A stretch of DNA of 32,453 nt from an uncultured Methanomicrobiales archaeon (GCA_903926075.1 CAIYHQ010000132.1:1-32453); one strand, 5' to 3'; positions 3,041 through 23,790 are shown, counted from the stretch's first letter. Program-made: numbers and translations. Notes: a model not told the origin generated them from the letters alone.

Positions 3041-3205
3041 AGTCACTAGTTGATTCGCATGATACCATCTGACATTTATTCTCAAGCGATACAGTTTCAT
3101 AGACGCTTGAGATATGATTATGCGTTAGCCAGAATAAATGTTGATTGCAACAATTCATATTGCATATGCACCAAGAAAGTATCTCATAAATACGGTGAAA
3201 AAGTA

Positions 3206-5639: not shown

Positions 5640-5753
5640 TTCCTATCTCTTTATAAAAAAATCAAAGGTCAGTTTTTTTGTCAAAAACTCCCCGCATATG
5701 GGCGTATTAAGTTTGTGATAAGATTAAAACGTGAAATAAACATACAGTCTTCT

Positions 5754-6539
5754 ATGTATAAATGGAATGCGAAAGAATATGCTGAAAATTCTTCCTTTCA
5801 AAAGTCGTCCGCATACGATTTTATCCAGAAACTGACGTTCAATGAAACAGATAGAATACTTGACATTGGGTGTGGCGACGGAAAAATCACGTTGGATCTT
5901 GCTAAAAAAGTTACCAGTGGTTATGTAATTGGTCTGGACCTCTCCAGCGATATGGTTAAATATGCTTATTCGAATTTTGAATCGGTTGAAAATATCTCTT
6001 TTATTAATGGTAATGCACAAACGCTCCCATTTTATAATGCTTTTGACGTTATCTTTTCCAATTATGCTCTTCATTGGGTACCCAATCATTACCAGTTACT
6101 CGCAGGAATCTATTGCGCCCTTCGTCCAAAAGGGAGAGTATTTGTACAAATGAGTGCAAAAGGAATTGGTACACCTATCTTCGATGCCACTGAGCAGGTA
6201 ATTAGCAAACCTTTCTGGAACAAATATTTTATTGGCTATGTTAATCCTTTTCAATATTATACCCTTGACGAGTATCGCTCTATCCTTGAAGGAGCCGAGT
6301 TTGCGATAAAACGGCTGGAAATCGTTCTGAGACAAATAGTGCATAAAAGCAGAGAAGGAATCACGGGTATGTTAAGGGCTGCTTTTCATCCTACCCTGGA
6401 GAGAGTTCCTCCCAATATTAGAGAAAATTTTCTAATGGAGTTAATAGATGTACTGGTGAGCAAATATCCTGCTGATAATGAGGGAGTTATTTGTATTCCC
6501 ACTATTGGGCTTCAATATGAGGCATGTATTAAAAAGTAA
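5754..6539 (+). CDS. Class I SAM-dependent methyltransferase (Tam/BioC-like)
   Basis: 261 aa from the ATG at 5754; an in-frame GTG at 5715 would add 13 residues, but family members begin near MYKWNAKEY and neither start has a clear ribosome site. Motif I is ILDIGCGDGKIT (SAM-binding glycine loop), the motif II acidic residue lies in VIGLDLSSDM, motif III is NGNAQTLPF, and FDVIFSNYALHW precedes the LRPKGRVFVQM post-motif. This order matches small-molecule carboxyl or C-methyltransferases of the trans-aconitate methyltransferase group. The substrate cannot be told from sequence. It has no obvious operon partner. Confidence 0.8.
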   Translation: MYKWNAKEYAENSSFQKSSAYDFIQKLTFNETDRILDIGCGDGKITLDLAKKVTSGYVIGLDLSSDMVKYAYSNFESVENISFINGNAQTLPFYNAFDVIFSNYALHWVPNHYQLLAGIYCALRPKGRVFVQMSAKGIGTPIFDATEQVISKPFWNKYFIGYVNPFQYYTLDEYRSILEGAEFAIKRLEIVLRQIVHKSREGITGMLRAAFHPTLERVPPNIRENFLMELIDVLVSKYPADNEGVICIPTIGLQYEACIKK

Positions 6540-6719: not shown

Positions 6720-7184
6720 ATGACAGATGCAGATCTTGTAAAAAGTGGCCAGGTTATGGGTCCGGTTGACTACGTAATAGTCGGGTTTCCAGGGAACAAA
6801 TTCAGTGGTGAAATAGCCCCTGAACTTGCAAACCTTGAAAAAAAAGGAATTATCCGGGTGATAGATCTGGTTTTTGTTTTAAAGAATGAAACCGGAAAAG
6901 TACTAATAACCGAAGCAAAGAATCTCGGAGGAGATACTGGTGATGCGTTCAGTAGATTCGCAGAGAATGCGAGCGAATGGTTTTCACTCGATGATATAGA
7001 AGCTATTGCAGAAGAATTGCCGATTAACAGCTCAGCTGGCATTATTCTATATGAAAACACTTGGGCGGTTCATTTCAAAGAAGCCGTTCTTAATTCCAAA
7101 GGAGTACTTCTTGACCAGGGTCGTATTCCGGCCGAAATAATAAGTAGTGTAATGCAGGGAAAAATTAAACAAGGAGGTGTATGA
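6720..7184 (+). CDS. DUF6325 family protein
   Basis: 154 aa, soluble. The start of the domain is typical: GPVDYVIVGFPGNKFSGEI, then LEKKGIIRVIDLVFVLKN, an acidic middle (EAIAEELPINSSAGIILYENTWA) and HFKEAVLNSKGVLLDQGRIPA. DUF6325 proteins are short, uncharacterised, and commonly sit next to SHOCT-domain genes, as here: the stop codon at 7182-7184 is 1 bp from the ATG of the SHOCT gene, and the ribosome site of that gene lies inside the end of this one. Translational coupling is likely. Role unknown; the family is often associated with stress or membrane proteins. Confidence 0.8.
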   Translation: MTDADLVKSGQVMGPVDYVIVGFPGNKFSGEIAPELANLEKKGIIRVIDLVFVLKNETGKVLITEAKNLGGDTGDAFSRFAENASEWFSLDDIEAIAEELPINSSAGIILYENTWAVHFKEAVLNSKGVLLDQGRIPAEIISSVMQGKIKQGGV

Positions 7185-7185
7185 A

Positions 7186-7431
7186 ATGAGAGGAAGAGGA
7201 ATAATGCTCGTTGCCGGAATGAAAATGGGGCAAAAAAAAGCCTCACAGGCAACGGCCTTAAAAGAACAGGGTGCTGCAGAAGCTCAGCAGCAGATGGCAC
7301 AGGCACCGACTGCATTAAGTCCGGAAACAGATGTTACAGTTCAGTTGCAAAAATTTGCCGAACTGCATAAATCAGGCGTACTATCAGATGAAGAGTTCAC
7401 AGCCGCTAAAAAAAATCTCCTGGGAATTTAA
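7186..7431 (+). CDS. Short SHOCT-domain protein
   Basis: 81 aa from the ATG at 7186, which has AAGGAGGTG at 7171-7178. Residues 1-50 are a Gly/Met/Ala/Gln-rich lead (GRGIMLVAGMKMGQKKA, then AEAQQQMAQAP). Residues about 53-81 are a SHOCT motif: LQKFAELHKSGVLSDEEFTAAKKNLLG, the short C-terminal helix pair thought to mediate oligomerisation. It overlaps the control region of the DUF6325 gene, so the two products probably act together. Confidence 0.85.
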   Translation: MRGRGIMLVAGMKMGQKKASQATALKEQGAAEAQQQMAQAPTALSPETDVTVQLQKFAELHKSGVLSDEEFTAAKKNLLGI

Positions 7432-7451
7432 ACCCTGGAAAAAAATTGTTT

Positions 7452-8312
7452 TTAGATTTTTGTATAGAACAGTGTAGCCTTTCCATTTGGATATAAAAGT
7501 GTAAGCTCTGTGTTCTTAACTGAATATTTAGTTGCATTTTGAAGATTACCCAGATATGTCGATTCCTGTGCCATAACTCCGTCCGGCTCCGGGCAGAACA
7601 TCCGAGTACTTCCAGGTTGTGATATTTCAAGTTTATCACCCTCAACCTGGAAACTGGCAAAGTATCGGTTACATCCTGATGAGCCTGTCACTTTCCCATC
7701 TGATTCAAATATTGCAGTAATATTTGTCCCCTTAATGGTTTCATTAACAATGTTATTTTCATTCATCGAATCCAGTTTCCATGAACCGGTCAGAATAACA
7801 GGGTTGTATTTCGCAAAAACCAGTTGATTTTTCCCATCCATGTCCTGTACCTTAAGCTCATTTGCTGTTACCGAGAAAGTGGATGAATTCTCGAGTATGC
7901 CTAAATATATCCTTTCCTGGTCCATATTACCGTCCGGCTCCCCACAAAACATCATAGTAGAGCCAGCGTTTCCAAAGGATATTTTATTCTCTGTGACATT
8001 ATAAGAAGTAAAATAATTATTACATCCCGAATTCCCATTTATATTTCCCTCTGCGCTAAAATTAGCGGTTATAGTAGTCCCGGGGACCAGCTTAACTGAA
8101 TTTCCTTTATTAATGATTGACTGAAGCGACCAAATACCATTCGTAAGTAAAAGTTTTGAATCAGCAGATACCGTGGATGCAGCAGGAAGATTGCCCGAAT
8201 CTATCGTTCCCGGAGGGGACGTTGGGGGAATTTGAGTTGTTTGTTGTGTGCATCCGGTTATCAGTACTGCAAGAATTATACAGGTGATGCTAAGCACCAG
8301 GTATGACTTCAT
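7452..8312 (-). CDS. Lipoprotein with two META domains
   Basis: 286 aa. Residues 1-20 are a signal with lipobox LITGC (C21), then a Pro/Thr/Ser linker. Two META (HslJ-like) domains follow, about residues 58-170 and 172-285. Each has W-x-L, an Ile-Thr-Ala strand, GN/GS-S-G-C-N-x-Y-F and M-F-C-x-E-P-D-G-x-M-x-Q-E. The paired Cys in each domain (SGCN and MFC) could form a disulfide. META domains occur in heat-shock and motility-associated surface proteins and have no enzymatic activity known. The gene is convergent with the DUF6325-SHOCT pair, leaving about 20 bp between the ends. Confidence 0.85.
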   Translation of the reverse strand: MKSYLVLSITCIILAVLITGCTQQTTQIPPTSPPGTIDSGNLPAASTVSADSKLLLTNGIWSLQSIINKGNSVKLVPGTTITANFSAEGNINGNSGCNNYFTSYNVTENKISFGNAGSTMMFCGEPDGNMDQERIYLGILENSSTFSVTANELKVQDMDGKNQLVFAKYNPVILTGSWKLDSMNENNIVNETIKGTNITAIFESDGKVTGSSGCNRYFASFQVEGDKLEISQPGSTRMFCPEPDGVMAQESTYLGNLQNATKYSVKNTELTLLYPNGKATLFYTKI

Positions 8313-8333
8313 ACCTCTAAATATTTATTTTCA

Positions 8334-8343
8334 CTATAAATAG
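8334..8343 (-). promoter_or_regulatory. Putative TATA box for the META lipoprotein
   Basis: Minus strand reads CTATTTATAG, 22-31 bp before the ATG at 8312. This distance suggests a nearly leaderless transcript. Pattern-based only. Confidence 0.45.
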
Positions 8344-8384
8344 TACTTCTTTTGTGTACTCAATTTAAACCTGAAAGGAAAAAA

Positions 8385-9404
8385 TTAAAAATCTTGTATC
8401 GGGTAAAGGAATTTTTTTTCAGGAATCCTATGTATGGTGATATGTACTGGATTTCCAAGTTTCTTCTCAATAGCTTTCCCGAGTCCCTCAATATTTGAAA
8501 CATTTCCTTCACCAATTATTGTCAGATCAATTTCAGAATGAAATGACTGGACCCTGTCAAGTTTAAATTGAGTATTTTCAAACCATTTTTGTGCTACCGA
8601 GTTTACTATTAACTTCTCTTTTTCAGATTGAAATACACCGTACGATGTAAATACAAGGAGAATAATGATTATTATAGTTCCAATCATTATGAATTCAGTT
8701 GCTTTTTTTCTAACTTTTCCATTAGATTCAATATTCGATAGTGTTTGAAGGCCCATTAAACCAAACACGATTGTCCCGGAAAGAAGGATGGCAATAAAAT
8801 TTGTTATAAAAAGGAGAAAAGCACCGTTTGCATTGTTCCATTGTCCTAAAGCCAGTGAAATCCCAACTACACTTAATGGTGGTACAAGAGATATAGCTAT
8901 TGCGACACCTGGGAGTGAGTCTAAAATTTCTGACCTGCCCAGTGCATACGCCCCTGCTGCACCAGCTGCTAATGCTATTATTAAATCATAAATTCCTGGA
9001 GAGGTCCTTGCAATTATCTGAGTATTTGTTGCGAATGAAATGGTGGATTCAGGCGTTATCAGTGTTAAAATCATTGAGAGAACAACTACACTTACAACAC
9101 CTGCTATTACAACAAAAAGAGCCTTTAGCATTCTATCAACTGATCCTATTGTTACTGCTGCTGCAGTTGCCATGATTGGTGTCATAAGAGGGGCAATTAT
9201 CATAGCACCAATAACCGTTGCCGTGGAATCAGAAATAACGCCGTATGTGGAGATAATGGTCGATAAAAGCAGGAGGACTGTAAAATTCGTAAGTTGCTGG
9301 GTCCTTTTTTCACCTTCAAAAAACAATTGACTCTCAAACTTTGGGAGATATTCAGGGTCAAACCGGTTTACCCGAATATATCTTAATAAATCATCGAATA
9401 ACAT
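8385..9404 (-). CDS. DUF389 / TIGR00341 family membrane protein
   Basis: 339 aa. The N-terminal about 40 residues are charged and cytoplasmic (FDPEYLPKFESQLFFEGEKRT). Five to six transmembrane segments follow between about 40 and 255, with the family signatures DSTATVIGAMIIAPLMTPI, ALAAGAAGAYALGRSE and GVAIAISLVPPLSVVGISLALG. The last 85 residues form a soluble alpha/beta domain (LTIIGEGNVSNIEGLGKAI). DUF389 proteins are widespread in archaea and actinobacteria and their substrate is unknown; a transport role is inferred from the fold. The gene is solitary, in the same orientation as the sulfatase block. Confidence 0.85.
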   Translation of the reverse strand: MLFDDLLRYIRVNRFDPEYLPKFESQLFFEGEKRTQQLTNFTVLLLLSTIISTYGVISDSTATVIGAMIIAPLMTPIMATAAAVTIGSVDRMLKALFVVIAGVVSVVVLSMILTLITPESTISFATNTQIIARTSPGIYDLIIALAAGAAGAYALGRSEILDSLPGVAIAISLVPPLSVVGISLALGQWNNANGAFLLFITNFIAILLSGTIVFGLMGLQTLSNIESNGKVRKKATEFIMIGTIIIIILLVFTSYGVFQSEKEKLIVNSVAQKWFENTQFKLDRVQSFHSEIDLTIIGEGNVSNIEGLGKAIEKKLGNPVHITIHRIPEKKFLYPIQDF

Positions 9405-9678
9405 GTGAGTGCCCTATAGAGGATTTAGAATAACTAATACCTTTTTTTCAAATCTATGAACTTTAAATTGGCGATTTTTCCATCTCTTTTGTAATAATGT
9501 TTGAATCTAATTGTTGGGTGATTTCCGAAACATTTGAGGCTTTAATTTTATCTACTCCAAGATTTAATATAATTTTCTGAACTTGAAGTTCTTCTTTTTA
9601 ATACTCCCAAAGATAGCACCAGGGATGTTTTCTTTATGCTAAACTTGCACTATCGCGGATAAGGTGTCATCGTTATCT
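9405..9678 (-). pseudogene. Decayed coding tail with frame changes
   Basis: The minus strand of this gap reads like protein in pieces: from about 9665, DNDDTLSAIVQV, a TAG, then HKENIPGAIFGSIKK, a frame change in an A-run near 9600, then a continuous EELQVQKIILNLGVDKIKA...TKEMEKSPI ending in a TAA near 9470. The first piece is out of frame by one base with the end of the upstream 258-residue gene. It may be a broken C-terminal extension of that gene or the remains of a separate small gene. Seen directly, but homology is not known. Confidence 0.35.
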
Positions 9679-10455
9679 TTACCTGGAATCCATTGTAACT
9701 ACAATATCCATTTGGGAGATCTTTTTGTATACCTTTCGTTTTCTGGATAAATTTCGGTAATCATAGAAATAGAACTCATAAGTTTTCCACATTGAAGCCC
9801 AATTCGCGATCATAATAAAAAAACCAATAAACTGGTAGATTACCGGATTTATATTCAGATATCCATTGTCGGTCAGAAGAATAAATAAAAATCCGATTAT
9901 CGCATTAATCAGGGTAATCTGAAAACTAAAGATTCCTTCACGCTTTTTTAAGATTAATTCATGATTCAATTGGGGGATTCGTTTTAAAAAATGGTTTTTT
10001 ATTGTTTGTGAAACTAACTCCTTATCAAGGGAGAGAATCTCTTTTTTCGGGATAACGATTTCAAGTTCAACCTGACGTCTCACCCAGATTTCATCCAGAT
10101 ATGATGCTATTGTTTCTTCGGCTCTTTCTGTCAGTTCTTTGTCTGGAAGAGGGGCTGTATCTGAATCATCAAAGAGTTGTTGTATAGAATGAAAATGGAG
10201 GATTACAATCCTTATGTCTCCCTTTTTCTCCTTCGTGACATCGATTACCTTCACAATATCAACACTCTCTAAACAATATACATCTTTTATACTCTTTTTG
10301 ATACATAAAACGATAGGATTACTAATAGCAATATAATTCCAGCTAAATATCCCTTGGTTACTTCCTCTAGTAACTGTGAGATCTGGTTTGTTAAATATCC
10401 ACTGACACAGGAACGAAGGTAGGAGTAATCTACTTTGAATAAAGATAATGCACAC
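9679..10455 (-). CDS. Hypothetical protein with two C-terminal membrane segments
   Basis: 258 aa, not recognised. The frame starts with GTG at 10455 and has no internal Met until the membrane region, so the start is uncertain. Residues about 60-110 look like a small alpha/beta domain (ESVDIVKVIDVTKE, GDIRIVILHFHSIQQLF), residues 110-170 are charged and helical (TERAEETIASYLDEIWVRRQVELEIVIPKKE). Two membrane helices lie near 175-195 and 205-225, followed by a basic/aromatic tail (MWKTYEFYFYDYRNLSRKRK). It follows the sulfatase gene by about 38 bp on the same strand. The end may be truncated by a frameshift. Confidence 0.55.
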   Translation of the reverse strand: MCIIFIQSRLLLPSFLCQWIFNKPDLTVTRGSNQGIFSWNYIAISNPIVLCIKKSIKDVYCLESVDIVKVIDVTKEKKGDIRIVILHFHSIQQLFDDSDTAPLPDKELTERAEETIASYLDEIWVRRQVELEIVIPKKEILSLDKELVSQTIKNHFLKRIPQLNHELILKKREGIFSFQITLINAIIGFLFILLTDNGYLNINPVIYQFIGFFIMIANWASMWKTYEFYFYDYRNLSRKRKVYKKISQMDIVVTMDSR

Positions 10456-10493
10456 CCTTTTCTTTAAAAGGAGGAGATAATGATTATATTCAT

Positions 10494-12827
10494 CTATTCA
10501 ATCATAAATGCCTGTTTAATCTCTATGGCAACATTGACATACGGTTTTCCATTGACTGCTACTATAACCCTTTTTAAGTCACCGGTAAAACGAAAAGGCG
10601 GATCATAAAGGTCACTTACCGGGGTCTCGCTGTCATAACCACAACACAGACCTTCACCACTCAATGACCACCCGAATGGAACCGTCTTTTCGATATTTCC
10701 TGATCCTACCTGTTCATCATCAATATACAGGATTCCAATTCCACTCACTCCCATAACATTATTGGCACTTAGTTCTGGTGATATCTCATATTGACCCGTA
10801 ATTTTAAACTCAAATCCCAGGGTATGGGTTCCTGCAGGAATGGGGACATCTGAAATTATCCGATACCGTTCTAATCCCAGGAAATTATGTTCATACAATA
10901 ATCTGTTATCCTTGACGAAAAGCGACCAACCTGCAAAACGGCCTCCCTGGGAAATGAGGACACCTTCAGCTCCTTTAACCGGAATTGTAACTTCTGCATG
11001 AACAGTAAATGGACGCATCCTTACATTTACCGCTGCTTCATTATCAATTCTGGTTGTATTTGGGTAATAAACATACAATTGACGGTCAGCATATGGCCTG
11101 GGACGTTGACCTTTACGTTGTTCAGAGTGGAGGGGAAATACATCATATTTCCCTGCCTGAAGAAACCAGATGCCTATCATTTCCTGTAATTTTTCCGGGT
11201 ACTTTAAGGCCAGATCATGGCATTCTGAAAAGTCTTTGGTAATATGATATAATTCCCACTGGTCACGGACAAACGGTAACAAAGGATCTCCGGGTCCATC
11301 TGCAGGAATACCAGGGATTTTGTGAAATGTGACTGCTTTCCAGCCATTGTGATAAATTGCCCGTGACCCATACATCTCATAATATTGGGTATCACGAACT
11401 TCACCGGCATCAGGATCTTTGAAGGTGGAAGCCAGACTTACTCCTGCAATCTCTTCCTGAGGTACCCCTTTAATAATATTCGGAGGTTCTATTCCAAGAA
11501 CCTCCAAAATGGTAGGCATCATATCAATGGCATGCGAATACTGTACCCGATATTTAACTTGTTGTGAGATCTCTTTAGGCCAATAAATAATACAGGGATC
11601 TGCTATCCCGCCATTAAATACATTTCGTTTCCATCGTTTAAATGGGGTGTTCCCAGCCATTGTCCAGCCGGTTGCATAATGATTGTAAGTTTTTTCACTC
11701 CCCCATTCATCATATCTTTCCAGGTTGGCCTCAAGAGAATCGGGAATAGCATTAAACAACAGGTTTTCATTAAATGAACCAAAAAAACCTCCTTCACCTG
11801 AAGCTCCATTATCTGAAACCAGTATAATGAGGGTATTATCCAGTTCCTTTAATTCTTCCAGACATGATATCAGGCGTCCGATGTGATAATCAGTATGACT
11901 TAAAAATCCGGCAAATACTTCCATCTGTCTGGCATAGAGCCGCTTTTCATCATTGCTCAGACTATCCCAGGATTGGACCCAGTCTGGACGGGGAGATAAT
12001 TCTGTTCCGGGAGGAATAACACCCGTTTCTAACTGGCGACGGTTTACCATCTCCCGGTATTCATCCCACCCATAGTCAAATTTGCCTTTATACCTATCAA
12101 TCCACTCTTTTGGCGCCTGGTGGGGTGCATGAGTTGCCCCTGGGCAGTAATATAAAAAGAATGGCTTTTCTGGATCAACTACCCGGAGATCATGAATAAA
12201 TCTGATGGCATGATCCGTGAGATCATCGGTCAGATGATATGGTCTCCCTCGCGTCTTTTCAGGTTCTGTAAAATGGTTGTCATACACCAAATCAGGACTG
12301 AATTGATCCGTTTCAGCTCCCAGGAATCCATAATATCGATCAAATCCCCGACCCAGCGGCCATCTATCGAAAGGACCTGCCATGGTCATTTCTTCGGTCG
12401 GGACAAGGTGCCATTTTCCGATTGCTATATTGAAATATCCCACATCATGCAAAATTTCTGAAATAAAACCCCTGGATGGAAGAATAATTCCATCGTAACC
12501 TGGATATCCCTGGGCTAGTTCTGAGATCATTCCAAGGCCATTGGTATGATGATTACGACCGGTTAACAGACAAGCTCTTGTCGGAGAACACATCGCCGTG
12601 GTATGGAAATTCGTGTACTGGAGCCCATCAGATGCAAGACGGTCAATATGGGGAGTGTCAATGGGTGCCCCATAGCACCCCAATTGACTATACCCTACAT
12701 CATCAAGAACAATCATTATGACATTTGGTGATCCTTTTTTTGGGCGAGGTGGCATTCTCCAATGCGGTAGAGATTCTGCCATTGTGACACCAATTTTCCC
12801 TTTAAAAACTTCTCCCTGCCAGGTCAT
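10494..12827 (-). CDS. Type I arylsulfatase (Cys-type), cytoplasmic
   Basis: 777 aa, preceded by AGAGGAG 5 bp before the ATG. Sulfatase domain residues about 30-480: metal ligands D42-D43 in VLDDVGYSQLG, the formylglycine signature C80-S-P-T-R with LLTG at 87-90, K138 and H140 in GKWH, H233 in ATHAPH, and D339-N340 in VSDNGASGEG. C80 would be oxidised to formylglycine, the catalytic nucleophile that hydrolyses sulfate esters. No signal peptide is present, so the enzyme should be cytoplasmic. Residues about 590-777 look like a LamG/concanavalin-type beta-sandwich. Its maturase gene lies 75 bp upstream on the same strand. The substrate is unknown; choline-sulfate, aryl-sulfate and glycan-sulfate are all possible. 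Confidence 0.92.
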   Translation of the reverse strand: MTWQGEVFKGKIGVTMAESLPHWRMPPRPKKGSPNVIMIVLDDVGYSQLGCYGAPIDTPHIDRLASDGLQYTNFHTTAMCSPTRACLLTGRNHHTNGLGMISELAQGYPGYDGIILPSRGFISEILHDVGYFNIAIGKWHLVPTEEMTMAGPFDRWPLGRGFDRYYGFLGAETDQFSPDLVYDNHFTEPEKTRGRPYHLTDDLTDHAIRFIHDLRVVDPEKPFFLYYCPGATHAPHQAPKEWIDRYKGKFDYGWDEYREMVNRRQLETGVIPPGTELSPRPDWVQSWDSLSNDEKRLYARQMEVFAGFLSHTDYHIGRLISCLEELKELDNTLIILVSDNGASGEGGFFGSFNENLLFNAIPDSLEANLERYDEWGSEKTYNHYATGWTMAGNTPFKRWKRNVFNGGIADPCIIYWPKEISQQVKYRVQYSHAIDMMPTILEVLGIEPPNIIKGVPQEEIAGVSLASTFKDPDAGEVRDTQYYEMYGSRAIYHNGWKAVTFHKIPGIPADGPGDPLLPFVRDQWELYHITKDFSECHDLALKYPEKLQEMIGIWFLQAGKYDVFPLHSEQRKGQRPRPYADRQLYVYYPNTTRIDNEAAVNVRMRPFTVHAEVTIPVKGAEGVLISQGGRFAGWSLFVKDNRLLYEHNFLGLERYRIISDVPIPAGTHTLGFEFKITGQYEISPELSANNVMGVSGIGILYIDDEQVGSGNIEKTVPFGWSLSGEGLCCGYDSETPVSDLYDPPFRFTGDLKRVIVAVNGKPYVNVAIEIKQAFMIE

Positions 12828-12902
12828 TTTCTCCTCTTATTGTAGGTAATAGTGATTCCTCCTCTTTTAGTATCATTGTTTCCATTGAAAGTGAAAAAAA
12901 AT

Positions 12903-14075
12903 TTAGCTAAAATATCGCATGATATTAGCAGGAGAACGTCCAAAATTTAATTCTCTTCTCATATACTCCATTGATTTTGAGATATGGTTGAAAAAATCGA
13001 AATACCCTTCACATAAGTAGTTGAGTCCGGGTTCACCATCAGGTGTTTGAATAAAACGATTCTTGGGACATTCACCATGACATACAAACAAATATTTGCA
13101 TTTTTGGCAATATTCCGGTAATTTTTCTACTTTATTAAGGCCAAATTGAATTTGCTTTCTATCATGAATCATATCATAAATTGAATTTACCAGAATGTTT
13201 CCGAGTTTATGGGTGTTGTCAACAAAATGGTCACAGGAAAAAACATCCCCATTATGTTCTATCACTATTGATTGACCACAAACAGGAGATAAATGACAGA
13301 TACCATGGGATTGACCACACCAGCCCGCAAGTGCCGTGTCAAAGAGTTGGATAAACACCGTTCCAACATCCTTCTTAACCCAATCATCAAATATCGTAAT
13401 TAGAAATCTTCCATATTTATCCGGTTTAACAGACCAAGGAGTAACAATCCCTGTATTGTAATCATAATTAACAACCGGAATAAATTGAATGAAATTTGCT
13501 TTCACGTCATCACGGAGAAATCGGTAAACCTCTAATGGTTTACTCTCATTTACTCCGTTAATTGTACATAATATATTAAACTCTACTCCAAATCTCTTAA
13601 GTAAATTTATACCCCTCATAACCTTGAGATATGAGCCATTCCCAATAGAATCAGTTCTTAATGCATTGTGTATTTCTTCTGGTCCATCAAGACTGATTCC
13701 GACAAGAAACTGATTCTCCTGAAAAAAAGTACCCCATGTATCATTCAACAAGACACCATTGGTCTGAATGGCATTATAAATCTTCATTCCCTCTCTTGAA
13801 TACTGCTTTTGAAAGTGAACAGCTTTTTTAAAAAAATCCAAACCCGCAATGGTTGGTTCTCCACCCTGCCAGGTGAATAGCACTTCATTAATTTGATTAA
13901 TCTCTATTGTCTGTTTGATATATTGTTCTAAAATTTCGTTTGACATCAAATGATTTGATTTTTTGTAGAGGTCAAGTTTCGAGATATAAAAACAGTATTT
14001 ACATGCCAGATTACATCTTGGGCCTGATGGTTTGGCCATTATATTTAACGCCGGAATATTATCCGAATAAGTCAT
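12903..14075 (-). CDS. Anaerobic sulfatase-maturating enzyme (radical SAM, SPASM)
   Basis: 390 aa from the ATG at 14075; an in-frame GTG at 14087 adds 4 residues. The radical SAM cluster motif is C21-x3-C25-x2-C28 (CNLACKYC) after MAKPSGP, the typical anSME opening. TWQGGEPT is the glycine-rich SAM-binding motif. The C-terminal third has the SPASM cysteines: CHLSPVCG, FSCDHF and the C-x2-C-x5-C-x3-C run in YCQKCKYLFVCHGEC. It converts the CSPTR cysteine of a sulfatase to formylglycine without oxygen. The neighbouring sulfatase carries exactly that target, so enzyme and substrate are paired. Anaerobic chemistry fits a methanogen. Confidence 0.93.
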   Translation of the reverse strand: MTYSDNIPALNIMAKPSGPRCNLACKYCFYISKLDLYKKSNHLMSNEILEQYIKQTIEINQINEVLFTWQGGEPTIAGLDFFKKAVHFQKQYSREGMKIYNAIQTNGVLLNDTWGTFFQENQFLVGISLDGPEEIHNALRTDSIGNGSYLKVMRGINLLKRFGVEFNILCTINGVNESKPLEVYRFLRDDVKANFIQFIPVVNYDYNTGIVTPWSVKPDKYGRFLITIFDDWVKKDVGTVFIQLFDTALAGWCGQSHGICHLSPVCGQSIVIEHNGDVFSCDHFVDNTHKLGNILVNSIYDMIHDRKQIQFGLNKVEKLPEYCQKCKYLFVCHGECPKNRFIQTPDGEPGLNYLCEGYFDFFNHISKSMEYMRRELNFGRSPANIMRYFS

Positions 14076-14128
14076 TGATATTGCCACATATAAAGTTTAG
14101 TCATCAATTTTTTGGGATTGTGAAAAAA

Positions 14129-14137
14129 ATATAAAAG
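14129..14137 (-). promoter_or_regulatory. Putative TATA box of the maturase-sulfatase operon
   Basis: The minus strand reads TTTTATAT in an A/T-rich setting, about 55 bp before the ATG at 14075. A second TTTATATG at 14089-14096 is closer but would place initiation after the start codon. Pattern-based. Confidence 0.4.
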
Positions 14138-14207
14138 TTTGGGCGATAATTTTGGGTGATTCTAATTTCTCAATTTTAATAGGTTATTAATTCCAGTTTG
14201 CTGATTA

Positions 14208-15608
14208 TTACCCTTCTTCTATTGTAATTAGACCTGTTTTTTCAGCATTAACCAGTTCCAGATAATCATGATAATTCTGACGTTCATATTTTTTTGCAAA
14301 TGATGTTATTGCCTCATCGAATAGATCACTTTTCCCAATATATCCTGCAATTTTCGCTGCATCTCCGGCCCGTGCATGTGCTCTTGCAAGCGTCCATCCA
14401 CATCCTTCAGCATAATTTATCATTTCTTCATATCCCATTAGATCTACATCCCATGAGTACTTCATATCCCTATATTGGCGGAGATAATATTGAATTCCTT
14501 CCATATCTGTTGTCCATCCTAGGAAAGCATCACTTGCGGATTGCATGTGTCGTTGACCCTGGACAATCCGTTCTCCATGATGTGTATATTTATTTGGAGA
14601 GGTATATGGTTCAAGAACTGACTGTCTTCCTTCCTTAATCTGAATAAAAAGAGGGCCTTCATTCTCACCAATAAGAAGGATAACGCCACATCTGGTACCC
14701 ACACTTCCGACTCCGACAACCCTTGTGACTATGTCTTCAATCCTATAACGGTCTAAGAAAAATTGACGGTCGTCATTCAATGATTTCACATACTTTCCAA
14801 ACATATCTAAAATTCCATTCGACATTCCCTCCACATAAGTAGGGTGATAAATGATAGGTTGTTGATCAATTATTTTCCATCTTCCATTGACGTATTCAGT
14901 GATTTTAGGAAAAACATATTCTACTACTTTCTTTCGAGCCTTTTCTGCCATTTTTTCCCTTTTTCGGCGTATAGACTTGTTATCTGCCGCAGCAATCATA
15001 TCCTCGATTCGTATCCTTAAATTCCAGATATCCAGTATTTTCATGGTACTAAAAGACTGGATTGCCTCGCGGTACATTGCTACATTTGTAGCAACAATCT
15101 GTTTGCACTCTTTTTCAGAGAACTTTTTTGTTTTGCAGGCGATATAGAAACTTGCTGCTAATCGTTTTAGATCCCATTCGAAGGAAGCCGGGTGTGTTTC
15201 ATCAAAATCGTTTAAATCAAAAATTAAGTTTCGTTCGGGTGTCGCAAATAATCCAAAATTGGACAAATGGCAATCTCCACAAGCCTGAACAATAATATCT
15301 GACCGTGGAGTGTGAGAGAGGTCATATGCCATGATTGAAGCTGCACCCCGGTAAAAGGTAAACGGAGATTGAAGCATCCGATAAAATCGTATCGGTATTA
15401 AATGGGGTAATCGTCCCTGATTTGATTCTTCTAATAAATCGATAGGGTTTCTTCTATCAGGTAAGGGTTCCAATTGGGAATGTGATTCACGGGGAACTGT
15501 TTCACGGATTGACCTCCCATATTCTTTTCTTTGTTTTACCGTTTGATAATCTGATTTATAATAAATTTCTCCGGATTCATCTCGCATGACAGTTGTATTC
15601 TTCCACAT
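14208..15608 (-). CDS. DUF2252 family protein, copy 1
   Basis: 466 aa, ATG at 15608 with GGAGG-type ribosome site (GGAGGAGTGAAAAC). DUF2252 hallmarks: R-x-x-x-R-(E)-(T/S)-H near 36-43, HLIPIRFYRM at 69-78, FTFYRGAA 83-90, GDCHLSN 111-117 and DLNDFDE 131-137, EWDLKRLAAS, and late GWTLARAHARAGD. The GDCHLSN/DxNDFDE pair resembles the catalytic HGDxxxxN and metal-binding Asp of aminoglycoside-phosphotransferase-like kinases, so a kinase-related fold is a reasonable inference; no substrate is known. A second full-length copy lies at 19.8 kb on the other strand. It sits upstream of the maturase and sulfatase, all minus. Confidence 0.88.
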   Translation of the reverse strand: MWKNTTVMRDESGEIYYKSDYQTVKQRKEYGRSIRETVPRESHSQLEPLPDRRNPIDLLEESNQGRLPHLIPIRFYRMLQSPFTFYRGAASIMAYDLSHTPRSDIIVQACGDCHLSNFGLFATPERNLIFDLNDFDETHPASFEWDLKRLAASFYIACKTKKFSEKECKQIVATNVAMYREAIQSFSTMKILDIWNLRIRIEDMIAAADNKSIRRKREKMAEKARKKVVEYVFPKITEYVNGRWKIIDQQPIIYHPTYVEGMSNGILDMFGKYVKSLNDDRQFFLDRYRIEDIVTRVVGVGSVGTRCGVILLIGENEGPLFIQIKEGRQSVLEPYTSPNKYTHHGERIVQGQRHMQSASDAFLGWTTDMEGIQYYLRQYRDMKYSWDVDLMGYEEMINYAEGCGWTLARAHARAGDAAKIAGYIGKSDLFDEAITSFAKKYERQNYHDYLELVNAEKTGLITIEEG

Positions 15609-15744
15609 GTTTTCACTCCTCCAAAATTGCTAAGGATATCTGATTTGATTTTGCTAAGCCATAAGTGCATTGGTATCTTTATTTTAAATACACAATACTT
15701 CACTCAAGACTTTTTTTAATTGATAATATCACCTTTTTTACTAT

Positions 15745-16779
15745 TCAGGATTCTATCGTACTTGTATTTGGTATATCACCTCTCATTAACTTCACCTGGG
15801 CAATGAGCAGCCGGTATCCGGAGACGAGCAGGGTAGCAAAAAGAGGGCCCAATATGATACCTGCTATGCCTATAGTTGCAATAGCCCCGATGATTGCAAT
15901 CATCATCATGGGGGCAGGCAGTGAGACTCTTTTTCCCATCATTTTTGGTTTTAAAACTGAACCAGGGATAAACATAAAAAGGACATACCCAAGGATAATG
16001 AATACAATGGCAAGGGGAATATTTCCCAAGGCGAGTGCATATAGAGTGATAAATACGAGCACTAACAAGGGTCCTATTGTAGGGATCAGTTGTGAAACAG
16101 ATGCAAGGGTTGCATTTGCTACAATTCCCCCCTTAACACCAAGGAGAGTAAAAAAGGGGATAGCGATAATGAATGTTATCACACAGATCTGAAGATTCAC
16201 AACGTATGTTGCATACAAGGTGTTGACTATATCTTTTTTGAGTTGTGTGGTCACAGCCTGGAGATGGTCCGGGATTGCAGAAAAAAAATCATCTACAAGC
16301 TCCCTGCCTCTGAGGAGGAACAGGAAGAGGCTTAGCAGGAAGAACAGGAATTGAACTGCAAATGAGGGAAGAGAGGAAGCAGCCTGTATAACTGCATTCT
16401 TAATCAATCCTGTAATAACAGAGAGAGACGAACCAAAAATACTCCCTCTCAAAAAACCTATATGGGGGAGAGTGTTCAGCCAATCTGCAATTGTTTCAGA
16501 CATATCAAAGAGATAACTAGAAGAATTGATTAACACGGATAAAATAAATGTAATAATTACAGTCAATATTATTATTGCAGTAACAATTACAATTGTTGCT
16601 GCTCGCTTTTCCGATACGTACTTACATAACCGTTGATAGGGGGAATAAAGGACTACCGCGAGTGTTCCTGCAAGAATAATTATTGATACATATGGCCAGT
16701 ATATAATGAATACCCCAAGGATTATGAAAGTAAGCAGGATAAGTGGAAGGATATTGTTTTTGATATTCGAAGGAAACAT
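15745..16779 (-). CDS. AI-2E family transporter (PerM / UPF0118)
   Basis: 344 aa with seven to eight membrane segments. The N-terminal helix pair, the soluble loop around 100-200, and the C-terminal signature (GVKGGIVANATLASVSQLIPTIGPLLV, then GSVLKPKMMGKRVSLPAPMMMIAIIGAIATIGIAGIILGP) are diagnostic. Family members export small molecules; Na+/H+ antiport and autoinducer export have been reported for individual members. The 3' end is about 136 bp from the start of DUF2252 copy 1 on the same strand, and a divergent K+ channel gene begins about 40 bp away. Confidence 0.9.
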   Translation of the reverse strand: MFPSNIKNNILPLILLTFIILGVFIIYWPYVSIIILAGTLAVVLYSPYQRLCKYVSEKRAATIVIVTAIIILTVIITFILSVLINSSSYLFDMSETIADWLNTLPHIGFLRGSIFGSSLSVITGLIKNAVIQAASSLPSFAVQFLFFLLSLFLFLLRGRELVDDFFSAIPDHLQAVTTQLKKDIVNTLYATYVVNLQICVITFIIAIPFFTLLGVKGGIVANATLASVSQLIPTIGPLLVLVFITLYALALGNIPLAIVFIILGYVLFMFIPGSVLKPKMMGKRVSLPAPMMMIAIIGAIATIGIAGIILGPLFATLLVSGYRLLIAQVKLMRGDIPNTSTIES

Positions 16780-16819
16780 ACATCAACCGTTTTAGCTTTT
16801 TTACCCTATTGAATTATCG

Positions 16820-17788
16820 GTGAATAGATCTATACAAGATTTAATCGGGTCATACTTGAATGCAAAGAAAAATGTAGGGGTAAAAGAATTAAGAGGACTT
16901 GAATATAATTTAATCATATTTAGGGTGACAAAATTGAAAGCAACTCAGGAAAATCAGGCGTCTGAAAAGAAAAGGATATTAATTGAAAAACAAAAGGATA
17001 ATTCTACCGATTTGAAAGACCTGGGATATGAGATTTTTATCGCCATGGTGTCAGTTCTTTCGGTGATAAATATGGGTATGCTCTGGTTTCCAGGGATGGA
17101 TCAGAATACCATCAATCTGATTTCAATAATGAATTCCGGACTGACATTAATTTTTCTTATTGACTTTGTATATCGTTTTACAACTACCGATTCCAAATAC
17201 CGTTATTTCATTAAAAACTGGGGATGGGCCGATCTTCTGGCGTGCATACCACAATTAAGAATTTTCAGAATTTTCCGAATTTTCAAGGCTTATAGGCTTG
17301 TAAATTCCATGGGAATTAAAGCTATAATCAAGCATCTTTCTGATAATCGGGCAGAAACAGCTTTGTATATCCTTGTTTTTTCAGTTTTTATTATTCTTGA
17401 ACTAGGATCTTTCTTTATTCTAATTGCAGAGAGAAGTTCATCAGCAGCTAATATACTTACAGCTTCCGATGCTATCTGGTGGACATACGTAACTATTACA
17501 ACAGTAGGGTATGGAGACAGGTACCCGGTTACAACCGCAGGCAGGATTGTTGGAATTCTTGTTTTAACAACAGGTGTTGGTGTCTTTGCAACATTTGCAG
17601 GATATATTTCGAATAAGCTGCTTGCCCCAAAAGAAGAGAATAAAGGAGGCAAAGCAGATATTAATAAGGTCATACTTGATAAACTGGAAGAATTGCATAA
17701 ATCTATTAATGATCTGAAAACGAATGAAAAAGAGACCACTCTGCGTGTACAACAAATTGAGCAGATGATTAAAGAGATTAAACAATAG
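16820..17788 (+). CDS. Voltage-gated-like K+ channel
   Basis: 322 aa from GTG at 16820; a GTG at 16923 is an alternative and neither has a clear ribosome site. Six membrane segments in the order of a Kv-type subunit. The S4-like helix carries a basic residue every third position: R147, R150, R153, K156, R159. The pore holds the selectivity filter TTVGYGD at 227-233 and the S6 segment GRIVGILVLTTGVGVFATFAGYI. Residues about 275-322 form a charged helix, probably a coiled coil that assembles the tetramer; a RCK domain is absent. TerC/DUF475 follows by 13 bp in the same direction, suggesting co-transcription. Confidence 0.88.
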   Translation: MNRSIQDLIGSYLNAKKNVGVKELRGLEYNLIIFRVTKLKATQENQASEKKRILIEKQKDNSTDLKDLGYEIFIAMVSVLSVINMGMLWFPGMDQNTINLISIMNSGLTLIFLIDFVYRFTTTDSKYRYFIKNWGWADLLACIPQLRIFRIFRIFKAYRLVNSMGIKAIIKHLSDNRAETALYILVFSVFIILELGSFFILIAERSSSAANILTASDAIWWTYVTITTVGYGDRYPVTTAGRIVGILVLTTGVGVFATFAGYISNKLLAPKEENKGGKADINKVILDKLEELHKSINDLKTNEKETTLRVQQIEQMIKEIKQ

Positions 17789-17801
17789 GTATATTTCCAG
17801 C

Positions 17802-18716
17802 ATGGACCTCGCAGTAGCAACTATTACAATTGCAGGACTGGTTCTATTTGAGACAATAACGAGTATTGATAACGCTATTATCAATGCTGAAGTCCTCAAT
17901 ACGCTGGGAACCAGAGCCAAAAGATGGTTTCTCACATGGGGAATCCTTGTCGCAGTTTTTCTTGTCCGTGGAGCACTTCCCTGGCTTATCGTCTGGTTGT
18001 CAACACCGGAACTTGGGCCGATAGGTGCCCTGACTGCAACTTTTTCAAGCGACCCGGTAGTCATTGCAGCTATAGAGGAGTCAACACCAATCCTCCTTAT
18101 TGGTGGCGGGATGTTCCTCATATTCCTGTTTTTTAACTGGATCTTCCTTGAGACAAAATATTTCGGACTTAAAATCGAGAATTACATTGCGCGAAAAGCG
18201 GTCTGGTTTTATGCAGTAGTATCAATTCTGCTTGCAATTATTGTCTGGTTTGCATTGAAAATCAATCCGATGATGGCTTTCGCTGCAGTTATGGGTTCTA
18301 CAGCATTTTTTATTGTATGCGGTTTCAGACAGAACTCAGAAGAGCAGGAACGCCTGATGCTTGGTGGTGGAATGACGGATATCTCGAAACTTTTTTACCT
18401 TGAAGTCATAGACGCCACTTTTTCAATTGACAGTGTGATTGGTGCTTTTGCATTTACTATGTCAGTTCCCCTGATTATTATTGGCTGTGGTATCGGGGCC
18501 ATAATAGTCCGCCAGATAACGGTATCAAATACAGAGACTGTTAAAAAGTATCATTATCTCAAAAATGGAGCGATGTACTCAATATTTTTTCTTGGTACTA
18601 TCATGATTCTTGAAAGTTTTGGAATCGGCATTCCAGCCTATGTATCACCACTGATTACGTTTGTAATTGTCGGATTTTTCTATTGGAAGTCTGTCAAGGA
18701 ATTAAACGATACTTAA
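17802..18716 (+). CDS. DUF475 / TerC-superfamily membrane protein
   Basis: 304 aa, seven or more membrane segments. Two acidic intramembrane motifs define the family: FETITSIDNAI with D23 and EVIDATFSIDSVIGAF with D214 and D220, related by internal duplication. The family includes TerC and manganese exporters, so metal-ion transport is likely but not proven. It is 13 bp downstream of the K+ channel, so ion homeostasis is a shared theme. Confidence 0.88.
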   Translation: MDLAVATITIAGLVLFETITSIDNAIINAEVLNTLGTRAKRWFLTWGILVAVFLVRGALPWLIVWLSTPELGPIGALTATFSSDPVVIAAIEESTPILLIGGGMFLIFLFFNWIFLETKYFGLKIENYIARKAVWFYAVVSILLAIIVWFALKINPMMAFAAVMGSTAFFIVCGFRQNSEEQERLMLGGGMTDISKLFYLEVIDATFSIDSVIGAFAFTMSVPLIIIGCGIGAIIVRQITVSNTETVKKYHYLKNGAMYSIFFLGTIMILESFGIGIPAYVSPLITFVIVGFFYWKSVKELNDT

Positions 18717-18725
18717 AAAAAGTCA

Positions 18726-18742
18726 GACAATATATTTATATT
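18726..18742 (+). promoter_or_regulatory. Putative TATA-like element upstream of the HdeD-like gene
   Basis: An uninterrupted A/T stretch ATATATTTATATTA at about 18729-18742, roughly 100 bp before the ATG at 18839. If used, it leaves a leader of about 75 nt. Weak evidence. Confidence 0.3.
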
Positions 18743-18838
18743 ATGTATTCTCTTAATCAATACATACTCGGTCATAGTATTAAATAAAAAATCTATTTGG
18801 TGAAAGTTATAAAAAATTAAAGTTGCAATTTGAACTTT

Positions 18839-19738
18839 ATGACGAAAATCGAAGATTATCTGGAACCTTTACACAATGGAGTATGGGAAGTTGAAATACC
18901 TAAAGAAGATGTTACTGAACCTTTAAGTGATGATTGGAAAAAATCTCCGATTAATGTCCCGACTCCTGGTACTATTGCAAGTTATAGAAATGGTCAGTAC
19001 CATGTTCATGAAACAAAAACCGAGTGGATGGTCCACCTCGACAGGTATGACCCAAAATTACACCCTGTACTACATTTAATGGATGATGCACCTCTGTTTC
19101 TTATGATCTCAGAAACTCTCGTTATGCTCTCTTCTGAAGCCAGGGGGAAATCCACAAATATTGAGAGTAAATTAAAGGAACAGGAAAGATTTTTGAAAAG
19201 AGGTTTTTATTTCGGATTGTTTTTTATTCTCCTCGGGTTTGTTTTTGTAATAAGACCTGATGTTGTTTATTACAGCCTTCTTCAGGTTATTGTCCCTCTC
19301 GCGGTCATTGTTATAGGAATTATTTCGATAGTTAAGGGGATTAAATTTTATCCTTTGCAGGTTTCCGATAAAAAAGACCAGGTAAACGGGTTGAAAATTT
19401 TAATTATCGGTATAGTTCTTGCAATATTCCCTATCATCATCTGGACTTTGATTTTACTTGGAATTCTCTGTATCTGGATGTTTGCAAGTGCAATTATGCT
19501 TCTTAACAGGGTAAGAAAGGGTAAATCTGCAGTACCGGAAGGATTTTACAGCAGATTTGCAATAGCTATCGTTTCATTAATCCTCGTGATAGTGATATTT
19601 ATTATGCCTGAGGCAGTTCTTACATTATTTATGATAATTGTAGGATTAGTGATAATTCTTATCGGTCTCGCTGTAATATCTGCAACTTTCAAGCTGAAAA
19701 AAAGATCACAGCAGTCTGCAAAAGAGATGATAGCATAG
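18839..19738 (+). CDS. HdeD/DUF308-like membrane protein with N-terminal soluble domain
   Basis: 299 aa from the ATG at 18839 (a TTG at 18830 in frame adds 3 residues). Residues 1-100 are soluble and unusual: VWEVEIPKEDV, PLSDDWKKSPINVPTPGTIASYRNGQYHVHETKTEWMVHL. Residues about 115-290 contain six membrane segments in three helix pairs, a DUF308/HdeD-like arrangement (hydrophobic runs with short G-x-x-x-L-I-x-G loops, ending KLKKRSQQ). HdeD proteins are linked to acid resistance in enterobacteria; archaeal roles are unknown. DUF2252 copy 2 begins 54 bp later. Confidence 0.65.
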   Translation: MTKIEDYLEPLHNGVWEVEIPKEDVTEPLSDDWKKSPINVPTPGTIASYRNGQYHVHETKTEWMVHLDRYDPKLHPVLHLMDDAPLFLMISETLVMLSSEARGKSTNIESKLKEQERFLKRGFYFGLFFILLGFVFVIRPDVVYYSLLQVIVPLAVIVIGIISIVKGIKFYPLQVSDKKDQVNGLKILIIGIVLAIFPIIIWTLILLGILCIWMFASAIMLLNRVRKGKSAVPEGFYSRFAIAIVSLILVIVIFIMPEAVLTLFMIIVGLVIILIGLAVISATFKLKKRSQQSAKEMIA

Positions 19739-19792
19739 AATGTAATGAAAGGAGAAGGGAAATAAAATTTTTGAGAAATTTGGAGGATTATA

Positions 19793-21196
19793 ATGCAAAA
19801 TGAGATAAAAGTTGAATTTGATGAATTTGGTTTTGCCAGATACATCTCAGATTATAAAACTGCAGCTCAACGAAAACAGGAAGGAAAAGATATCAGGCTG
19901 AAATTTCCCAGGGAAACTCATTCTGAATTTGATTTGGCTGGAGATTGTAGAGATCCGGTAAGTGTTATCAAAAAGTCGAGCGAAAACAGAATTGAACACC
20001 TCATACCAATCCGATATGGCAGGATGGCTAAGAATTTTTTCACTTTTTACCGCGGGACAGCTTCATTAATGGCGAATGACCTCGCAGAGACACCTGTATC
20101 AGGTATCAGGGTGCAGGCATGTGGTGACTGTCATCTTTCCAATTTCGGCCTTTTTGCAACCCCGGAGCGAAACCTGATCTTTGACATAAATGATTTTGAT
20201 GAAACCCTGCCTGCCCCTTTTGAATGGGATGTTAAAAGGCTTGCAGCGAGTTTTTACATAGCGGCCCTGAATAACCGTTTTGCTGATAAAGATTGTGCTG
20301 CTGCAAGCAGGAACTGTGTTCGTGCTTACCGTGAAGCGATTGCTAAATTCTCTCTCATGAAAGTACTTGATGTCTGGTATTCAAAGCTTGATATGGAAAA
20401 AATCATTGCATCTGCACCGGATGCTGAAGCAAAGCGAAACCGTGAACTGATTGCAAATGAAGCAAGGTCAAATGTTACAGAATATGTTTTCCCAAAGATT
20501 GCAAAAGTCCAGGGTGACAGGCGTCGAATCGTTGATCAGGTTCCACTGGTGTATCACCCAAAAAATGATGAGCTGGTATATGAATCATTAACAGAAACGA
20601 TTGGCATGTATCGTGAGACACTGCCCCACGAACGCAGGGTTCTTCTCGACCGATACCATATTGAAGATATAGCTTACAAAGTTGTTGGTGTTGGAAGTGT
20701 CGGAACTCGTTGCGGAGTGGTCCTGTTACTTGCTGAACAGAACGACCCACTTCTTCTTCAGTTAAAGGAGGCACGTCCTTCAGTCCTTGAGCCATATGCA
20801 GGTAAGAGCGAATTTTCGCAGCATGGACAGAGAATTGTTGTTGGTCAGCGGCTTATGCAGTCAGCTAGCGATATGATGCTCGGGTGGGTAACAGGCAGGA
20901 AAGGTGTAGATTTTTATATCAGGCAACTCAGGGATATGAAATATTCGCTTGATATTGATAAATTAATCCAGAAACAACTCTCCAGGTATGCAGAGATATG
21001 TGGCTGGACACTTGCACGTGCCCATGCACGATCAGGTGATGCTTCGACTATCTATGGTTATCTTGGAAAAAGCGATGAGTTTGACAGGGCAGTGGGGACC
21101 TTTTCCAAGGCGTATGCTGATCAGACTAAACATGATTATAAAATTTTTGTTGAGGCAATCAAGTCAGGGGAGATTACAGCGAAAAAAGGTGTATAA
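19793..21196 (+). CDS. DUF2252 family protein, copy 2
   Basis: 467 aa; GGAGG at about 19782-19786 precedes the ATG. Same landmarks as copy 1 at the same positions: HLIPIRYGRM, FTFYRGTA, GDCHLSN 111-117, DINDFDE 131-137, GWTLARAHARSGD near the end. The two align end to end without long gaps; by eye about half of the residues match, so they diverged long ago or came from different sources. Copy 2 follows the HdeD-like gene; copy 1 is upstream of the sulfatase maturase. Confidence 0.88.
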   Translation: MQNEIKVEFDEFGFARYISDYKTAAQRKQEGKDIRLKFPRETHSEFDLAGDCRDPVSVIKKSSENRIEHLIPIRYGRMAKNFFTFYRGTASLMANDLAETPVSGIRVQACGDCHLSNFGLFATPERNLIFDINDFDETLPAPFEWDVKRLAASFYIAALNNRFADKDCAAASRNCVRAYREAIAKFSLMKVLDVWYSKLDMEKIIASAPDAEAKRNRELIANEARSNVTEYVFPKIAKVQGDRRRIVDQVPLVYHPKNDELVYESLTETIGMYRETLPHERRVLLDRYHIEDIAYKVVGVGSVGTRCGVVLLLAEQNDPLLLQLKEARPSVLEPYAGKSEFSQHGQRIVVGQRLMQSASDMMLGWVTGRKGVDFYIRQLRDMKYSLDIDKLIQKQLSRYAEICGWTLARAHARSGDASTIYGYLGKSDEFDRAVGTFSKAYADQTKHDYKIFVEAIKSGEITAKKGV

Positions 21197-21967: not shown

Positions 21968-22984
21968 ATGAGTTTCTTCAATACTGCAGGGCCGGTGAAC
22001 TGCCAGGACCACTATTGTCTCCCTCCTCTTTCACGGTTTGACCTTGCTGAGATGCTCTCCCTCATCACCCAGAAAAAGTACTTCGTCCTTCATGCTCCCA
22101 GGCAGAGTGGGAAGACCTCCTCCCTTCTTGCCCTCCGGGATTACCTGAACCGTGAGGGAAACTACACAGCACTCTATATTAATGTAGAAAGCGGGCAGTC
22201 AGCTCGGGGGGATGTTGGGAGAGGGATGAAAGCGGCACTTACCCAGATTGCATATGAGGCCGATATAACTCTGCAGGATATGTTTCTCCTGGAAAACAAG
22301 GCACCAATCCTTGACCAGAATGGTGAAAATGCCGCTCTTGGTGTAGCACTCTCCCTGTAGTGCCGTAGGCTTGAAACGCCCCTCGTCCTCCTTGTTGATG
22401 AAATTGATGCACTTGTAGGAGATACTCTGATATCTGTTCTTCGGCAGCTTCGAAAGCGGGTATGCAAACAGACCCTCATCATTTCTATCTTCAGTCACCC
22501 TGTGCGGTGTTCGTGACGTCCGTGATTATCGGATCCACTCAGAGAGAGAGATCAGGAGATCATAACCGGTGGCAGTGCCTTAAATATCAAGGCAGAATCA
22601 CTTCGACTTGGTAACACTTTTCTCAGGAAGAAACGAGAGCTCTTTGCCTGCAGCATACCGCAGAGACCGGCCAGGTATTTGAAGAAGAGGCACTTTCAGT
22701 TATTTGGAACCTGACCTGTGGTCAACCTTGGCTTGTTAATGCTCTTGCATACGAGGTTTGTTTCAAACTTAAGAAGGGGAGAGACAAGAAAAATTCAATC
22801 ACATCTTTGATGATTGAAGAAGCGAAGGAACATCTGATACTCAGGCGGGAGACCCACCTTGATCAATTGGCTGATAAACTCAAAGATGAACGGGTTAGAC
22901 GCATTATTGAACCGATCCTCATGGGAGAGGACTATGAAGGGATGCTTCGTGCTGAAGACATTGAATATGTCGAGGACCTTGGTC

Positions 22985-22989
22985 TGATT
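22985..22989. repeat. Target-site duplication TGATT (left copy; right copy 23793-23797)
   Basis: The 5-bp TGATT directly flanks both inverted-repeat ends of the IS, as expected from staggered cutting on insertion. Confidence 0.8.
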
Positions 22990-23054
22990 GAGCCTGTCCA
23001 ACGAGCGTATTAGCTTAAAAAGATATCTTTTATATACTTTGAAAACGCCCAAAT

Positions 23055-23780: not shown

Positions 23781-23790
23781 TTGGACAGGC
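23755..23790. repeat. Perfect 13-bp inverted repeat (hairpin) at the IS right end
   Basis: GCCTGTCCAATCA at 23755-23767 and TGATTGGACAGGC at 23778-23790, separated by a 10-nt loop. The outer arm contains the terminal inverted repeat, so the IS end is duplicated in inverted orientation. It may act as a transcription stop or mark a rearrangement at the end. Confidence 0.85.

Follow-up and report, generated by a model that had tools for sequence, protein, structure and literature searches.

A conserved mosaic neighbourhood around DUF6325-SHOCT in archaea and Actinobacteria, and its possible role in ion and envelope stress

What holds together the genes between positions 6720 and 21196 of a contig from an uncultured Methanomicrobiales archaeon, where a DUF6325 and a SHOCT protein stand beside a long type I sulfatase with its maturase, two DUF2252 proteins, an HdeD-like protein and several transporters? 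The window analysed here is the entire contig C132 (32,453 bp) of a 3.14 Mb assembly in 134 contigs that is 97% complete; results on its own genome come from searches and from individual sequence stretches of that assembly. The first-pass annotation had taken these genes for a possible envelope and stress module, transferred as a functional unit. The genes form a conserved mosaic neighbourhood around DUF6325-SHOCT, with an excess of partner families in distant lineages. On balance we favour, with moderate confidence, the interpretation that the region exemplifies a mosaic island for ion/pH homeostasis and envelope stress that has spread horizontally; on this best reading its hosts would be archaea of the window's phylum and Actinobacteria/Chloroflexota, and here it would consist of two divergent runs of genes, each with a DUF2252 gene.

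Linkage is apparent at the level of whole genomes, which here are a sample with many draft assemblies and for which the P values, unless noted otherwise, assume independent loci. The DUF6325 family (PF19850) was detected in 19 of 295 archaeal genomes of the phylum and the long sulfatase in 33 of 295, and the two occur in the same archaeal genome 13 times (2.1 expected; hypergeometric P = 7e-10). In nine of these 13 genomes they lie on one contig within ~13 kb of each other (~0.2 expected), the linked genomes spanning six genera (g1, g15, g20, g21, g24 and g33) within which species are not independent. PF19850 was also found in 24 of 198 genomes of the actinobacterial phylum sample and in a few Chloroflexota, and within-genome linkage recurs in Actinobacteria, joining DUF6325 to the long sulfatase in 4 genomes (0.25 expected) and to DUF2252 in 4 (0.23 expected).

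The same association is seen when the content of each locus is counted in a search of ±10 kb around DUF6325, made in all frames with custom profiles and with open reading frames (ORFs) chosen by codon bias. The 22 archaeal loci contain SHOCT (17, mostly adjacent to DUF6325), HdeD (15), MFS (11), a small multidrug-export family (8), sulfatase (7), ClC and GH63/MGH1-like proteins (6 each), AI-2E and YrhK-like proteins (5 each), and a K+ channel, the maturase, glutamate decarboxylase and the unnamed membrane protein family g9679 (4 each). The few controls were random regions, not integration hotspots (20 archaeal regions of 20 kb, 9 bacterial), and the archaeal set held one HdeD, one MFS and one weak SHOCT match and none of the other families. 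SHOCT, again mostly adjacent, is present in 29 of the 31 bacterial loci, with sulfatase in 8, ClC and SulP in 5 each, the aerobic maturase FGE in 4, DUF2252 in 3 and glutamate decarboxylase plus YrhK in 2. Recurrent families averaged 3.6 per locus in archaea (controls 0.10) and 1.2 in bacteria (controls 0.11). Since the profile list was chosen after the loci had been seen, the count was repeated with only the families named beforehand in the first-pass annotation and with the window excluded; the excess near DUF6325 persisted (archaea 1.48 vs 0.05 per locus, bacteria 0.48 vs 0), and the archaeal difference stays significant with loci averaged by genus (P = 1.5e-4). The families are therefore linked above background rather than independently distributed, and the suggestion that they co-occur in distant bacteria holds for the excess near DUF6325 in distant archaea and in Actinobacteria/Chloroflexota, but the association is a variable mosaic, and META and DUF475 show no linkage to DUF6325 in the sample of pre-chosen families. 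DUF2252 had also been tried as the anchor and was dropped in favour of DUF6325, most of its 80 loci being without the other families.

At the centre of the neighbourhood, the DUF6325 gene (6720-7184, plus strand; PF19850 38.7 bits, cut-off 23.4) encodes a protein for which a confident model (mean pLDDT 86) predicts a soluble alpha/beta fold, with G14, P15, E112 and W115 invariant among 40 homologues; sequence and fold searches of the PDB returned no solved relative. Its stop codon (TGA, 7182-7184) is followed one base later by the likely start (ATG 7186) of the SHOCT gene (ORF 7177-7431, plus strand), whose domain forms the C-terminus of the protein (residues 56-82 of 84; PF09851 32.7 bits vs a cut-off of 27). 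This spacing, together with a GGAGG inside the end of DUF6325 just upstream of ATG 7186, indicates that the two genes are probably translationally coupled.

The remaining genes are arranged mainly in two runs that diverge near 16.8 kb. The AI-2E gene is first on the minus side, where DUF2252a at the upstream end, maturase, sulfatase and g9679 succeed one another with gaps of ~120, 75 and 38 bp; on the plus side the K+ channel, DUF475 and HdeD-like genes lead to DUF2252b at the end (gaps ~13, 113 and 54 bp). This spacing suggests co-transcription within each run, and the short divergent gap at 16780-16819 in the ORF map is a putative shared promoter region of both.

The sulfatase (10494-12827, minus strand; PF00884 205 bits) carries the Cys-type signature AMCSPTRACLLTG at residue 78, in agreement with the Cys/Ser-x-Pro-x-Arg pattern of type I enzymes. 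Its AtsA-like catalytic part, matched over residues 33-555 by its nearest solved structures (arylsulfatase chains such as 1hdh), is extended by a C-terminal domain of ~220 residues common to the neighbourhood sulfatases, and a reading of the sequence found no evident signal peptide or export signal. The adjacent radical SAM/SPASM protein (12903-14087, minus strand) is an anaerobic sulfatase maturase (anSME) that scores far above its curated cut-off (TIGR03942, 489.6 vs 349 bits) and contains the CNLACKYC motif (CxxxCxxC) and a SPASM domain (PF13186), so that the signature motifs of both proteins are intact. Several bacterial loci are without the anaerobic maturase, and there FGE adjoins the sulfatase instead. 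The neighbourhood gives this cytosolic-looking long sulfatase, easily taken for a scavenging enzyme, a possible role in stress, and the interchange of anaerobic and aerobic maturases in one setting lends support to it.

Related loci show how far the content shifts. In a member of the same family (G033), 36 kb hold DUF389, three g9679 and two ClC genes, a Na+/H+ exchanger, K+ channel, AI-2E, DUF2252, two HdeD genes, DUF169, DUF6325 and two cation ATPases, while a 34.5-kb contig of G032 combines DUF6325, SHOCT, g9679, a K+ channel, maturase, sulfatase, SulP, ClC and HdeD. On a contig of G015, DUF2252, SHOCT, DUF6325 and a second DUF2252 are packed into 4.7 kb, and the window's own genome has an MFS-GH63-HdeD cluster on another contig. 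The actinobacterium G477 has DUF2252, ClC, SHOCT, DUF6325, LOR, sulfatase, glutamate decarboxylase and YrhK within 20 kb, and a second actinobacterium, G486, has two DUF6325 genes, YrhK, glutamate decarboxylase, sulfatase, anaerobic maturase, DUF2252, SulP and a second sulfatase within ~35 kb. In both actinobacteria and in archaeal genus g33, DUF6325 is accompanied by glutamate decarboxylase, YrhK and often ClC; as a general member glutamate decarboxylase was rejected, being found only in that one archaeal genus and these two actinobacteria. Separately, a 529-residue membrane protein family with no Pfam match is present in 9 of the 31 bacterial DUF6325 loci (e.g. L235:8074-9663), and in Actinobacteria (L217, L215, L230, L221, L235) a carboxymuconolactone-decarboxylase-like protein and a LuxR-type regulator with an AAA domain, a candidate island regulator there, recur beside DUF6325.

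The trees indicate how such loci arose. The DUF6325 tree places the window with G015, G032, G076 and family f7 (support 100/98) and away from other members of the family to which it belongs. In the sulfatase tree the window's copy is basal in the main archaeal group (82/84), while two f7 archaea nest within bacteria beside G486 (100/100), and the G486 locus has glutamate decarboxylase, YrhK and DUF6325-SHOCT in common with one of those f7 archaea. A single transferred unit should give concordant trees and constant content; the two trees differ and content varies, so piecemeal exchange fits better than transfer of one block, and the data support transfer that was piecemeal, not joint. The idea of a fixed, transferred functional unit is thus not upheld, DUF2252 moreover standing mostly alone in bacteria. 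Composition did not mark the region as a recently acquired foreign block, its G+C fraction being 0.386 vs 0.37-0.42 in other contigs of the genome.

Such mosaicism is also what one would expect of a niche-adaptation hotspot, in which stress genes pile up in the same integration-prone regions without joint function. The variable content, the order and strand that shift between loci and the disagreement of the DUF6325 and sulfatase trees are all in keeping with this, as are the transposase and broken ATPase genes on the window's right flank and the DUF2252 remnants and split copies in its own genome and relatives. We nevertheless regard it as rather unlikely, because DUF6325 and sulfatase are linked across the six archaeal genera and again in Actinobacteria, and substitution of FGE for anSME beside the bacterial sulfatase argues for function in at least that part, although the comparison is with random regions and not with hotspots. 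Less probable again is that two independent neighbours have been joined, a set scavenging sulfate esters for sulfur supply (sulfatase, maturase and, elsewhere, SulP) and an ion-stress set. Among 14 archaeal sulfatase loci picked irrespective of DUF6325 the maturase is present in 9, ClC and the K+ channel are found in none of the 14, and bacterial sulfatase loci are tied to FGE and SulP; but the same 14 loci still contain HdeD in 7, DUF6325 in 5 and LOR in 5 (0-1 of 20 controls for each recurring family), and the window sulfatase has no evident export signal. That common membrane and stress families came together by chance over 14 kb, a reading to which the unlinked DUF475 and META genes lend something, can be set aside as very improbable given control regions almost empty of these families, the within-genome linkage and the counts restricted to the pre-chosen families.

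The two DUF2252 proteins (a: 14208-15608, minus strand, PF10009 465 bits; b: 19793-21196, plus strand, 491 bits) are both full-length, covering Pfam positions 1-392 of 392, and conserve the motifs GDCHxxNFG (GDCHLSNFG in copy a), NDFDET and GVGSVG together with a Lys (Lys325 in copy a). Copy b is 66-70% identical to its closest relatives and 54% identical to copy a, and the family is patchy, occurring in 7 of 101 relatives. A decayed third copy is present in the window's own genome, where L025:864-1004 (G000:C43) is a remnant 68% identical to DUF2252b with an in-frame stop, and split copies are seen in relatives (L019/L067 and L018, in G015 and G005), which suggests frequent decay.

The HdeD-like protein (18830-19738, plus strand) was the only one of the named families to be matched marginally; all the others were confirmed at their positions by Pfam or NCBIfam. 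Its DUF308 score (PF03729) is 24.8 bits against a cut-off of 25 by protein and 27.2 bits, over the cut-off, in the genome search, and it is named HdeD-like only, since it falls far short of the NCBI HdeD equivalog NF007577 (21 vs a cut-off of 189 bits). Full-length relatives sharing its ~115-residue N-terminal soluble extension lie next to DUF6325-SHOCT on a second G033 contig and on a G015 contig. The neighbouring ion channel (16820-17788, plus strand; PF00520/PF07885) is a K+ channel of the six-transmembrane type (Ion_trans) with a TVGYG filter and matches K+ channels in the PDB (best E 1e-18). The AI-2E family transporter (15745-16779, minus strand; PF01594 131 bits) has relatives in L023 and in a further 4 DUF6325 loci of archaea. 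The g9679 protein (9679-10455, minus strand) has no Pfam or NCBIfam match and owes its place to recurrence: of 10 archaeal genera sampled, 4 (the window's among them) have it close to DUF6325, against 0 of 20 controls. DUF389 (8385-9404, minus strand; PF04087) is an occasional member, found also in L023 beside K+ channel, AI-2E and DUF2252 genes and in the bacterial locus L213. The lipoprotein with two META repeats (7452-8312, minus strand; PF03724 157.8 bits) is a weakly supported one, its relatives being limited to L016, where DUF2252 is nearby, and L304, where DUF6325 and HdeD are; the DUF475/TerC-family membrane protein (17802-18716, plus strand; PF04332 156 bits, NF010612 over cut-off) was found at 0 other DUF6325 loci in the sample of pre-chosen families.

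A role of the island in ion and pH homeostasis is suggested by its partners, which include Na+/H+ exchangers, cation ATPases, ClC and glutamate decarboxylase. The original emphasis on sulfatase and envelope was too narrow: genes for moving ions (ClC, K+ channel, Na+/H+ exchanger, cation ATPases) are equally prominent in the recurring set. Under ion, acid or membrane stress, both divergent runs would be expressed together; the K+ channel and the AI-2E-type transporter (in other loci ClC, Na+/H+ exchangers and cation ATPases) would reset ion and charge balance, while HdeD-type proteins might stabilise the membrane. The maturase would convert the signature Cys of the sulfatase into formylglycine, and the sulfatase could then liberate sulfate from an ester in the cytosol or membrane. 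The DUF2252 proteins would act as putative kinases, and DUF6325-SHOCT would serve the membrane components as a soluble adaptor or sensor. Several points weigh against this interpretation. DUF2252 stands in 78 bacterial loci mostly without the other families; several partners have support from just one or two genera of archaea (g33 for glutamate decarboxylase and YrhK; g1 and g33, plus L023, for AI-2E); a search of the window's own genome gave no glutamate decarboxylase match at E ≤ 1e-60; transporters are common genes; and the stress role is read from family annotations. More tentatively, DUF6325-SHOCT may be the conserved core of an undescribed archaeal and bacterial stress-response system whose effectors are recruited as exchangeable modules (ion transporters, HdeD proteins, the kinase-like DUF2252, glutamate decarboxylase, and the sulfatase with one or the other maturase); the logic of such a system would resemble that of a portable defence island, but aimed at ion, acid or membrane stress. 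A literature search, judged mostly by title and abstract, found no paper joining these families, nor any that combined even two of DUF2252, DUF6325, SHOCT, HdeD, arylsulfatase and DUF389. For five or more families of no known function (DUF6325, SHOCT, DUF2252, DUF308/HdeD-like and g9679), the neighbourhood supplies a shared context that is testable in culturable archaea and actinobacteria.

Outside the island, an archaeal-histone-like ORF read at 29780-29992 and archaeal relatives that include a Methanomicrobiales metagenome-assembled genome (L067) place the window among methanogen-type archaea. Directly upstream of DUF6325 (5166-6539) lie a LEA_2-domain lipoprotein and a methyltransferase gene, the former gaining no neighbourhood support in the DUF6325-locus profile search, and at 3050-4852 a large membrane-protein ORF of low G+C (~0.29-0.30) has no Pfam or NCBIfam match. 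To the right, 21968-27255 is a decayed mobile stretch with a weak DUF772-type transposase piece, an AAA-like fragment and two DUF4143/AAA_14 pieces, one truncated. Further on, small MNT (nucleotidyltransferase-like) proteins and a HEPN protein are encoded on the minus strand (30218-30517, 31275-31601, 31619-31960), of which Pfam confirmed the HEPN domain only; 31275-31960 looks like an MNT/HEPN toxin-antitoxin pair.

Comparison with known systems is closest for single components. DUF2252 is listed in the Pfam kinase clan as a family with flipped lobes (PMC9758233), and both window copies keep the full length, the kinase-like motifs and the Lys, but neither a PDB sequence search nor Foldseek against the PDB gave a solved relative (best match E = 1.3 for a model of pLDDT 90.6; a permuted fold could escape detection). 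The passages on SHOCT in the paper describing that domain leave its function undescribed, report that the authors' own test did not support oligomerisation, and do not contain the pairing with DUF6325 (PMC3581485); as there, the domain is C-terminal and here over the cut-off, whereas the window protein is small, stand-alone and probably coupled to DUF6325. Like known gene pairs of a type I sulfatase with anSME or FGE, the locus sets a Cys-type enzyme next to a maturase that passes its curated cut-off, but the sulfatase is of a long subfamily with an extra C-terminal domain and is linked to ion and stress genes. The Escherichia coli acid fitness island, with its hdeAB-hdeD and gad genes, is likewise a compact stress island with an HdeD-family membrane protein, and some loci studied here add glutamate decarboxylase; hdeA, hdeB and the gad regulators were not seen, however, and the window's own genome lacks a glutamate decarboxylase of that type, the neighbourhood being in this case archaeal and built around DUF6325-SHOCT and the sulfatase.

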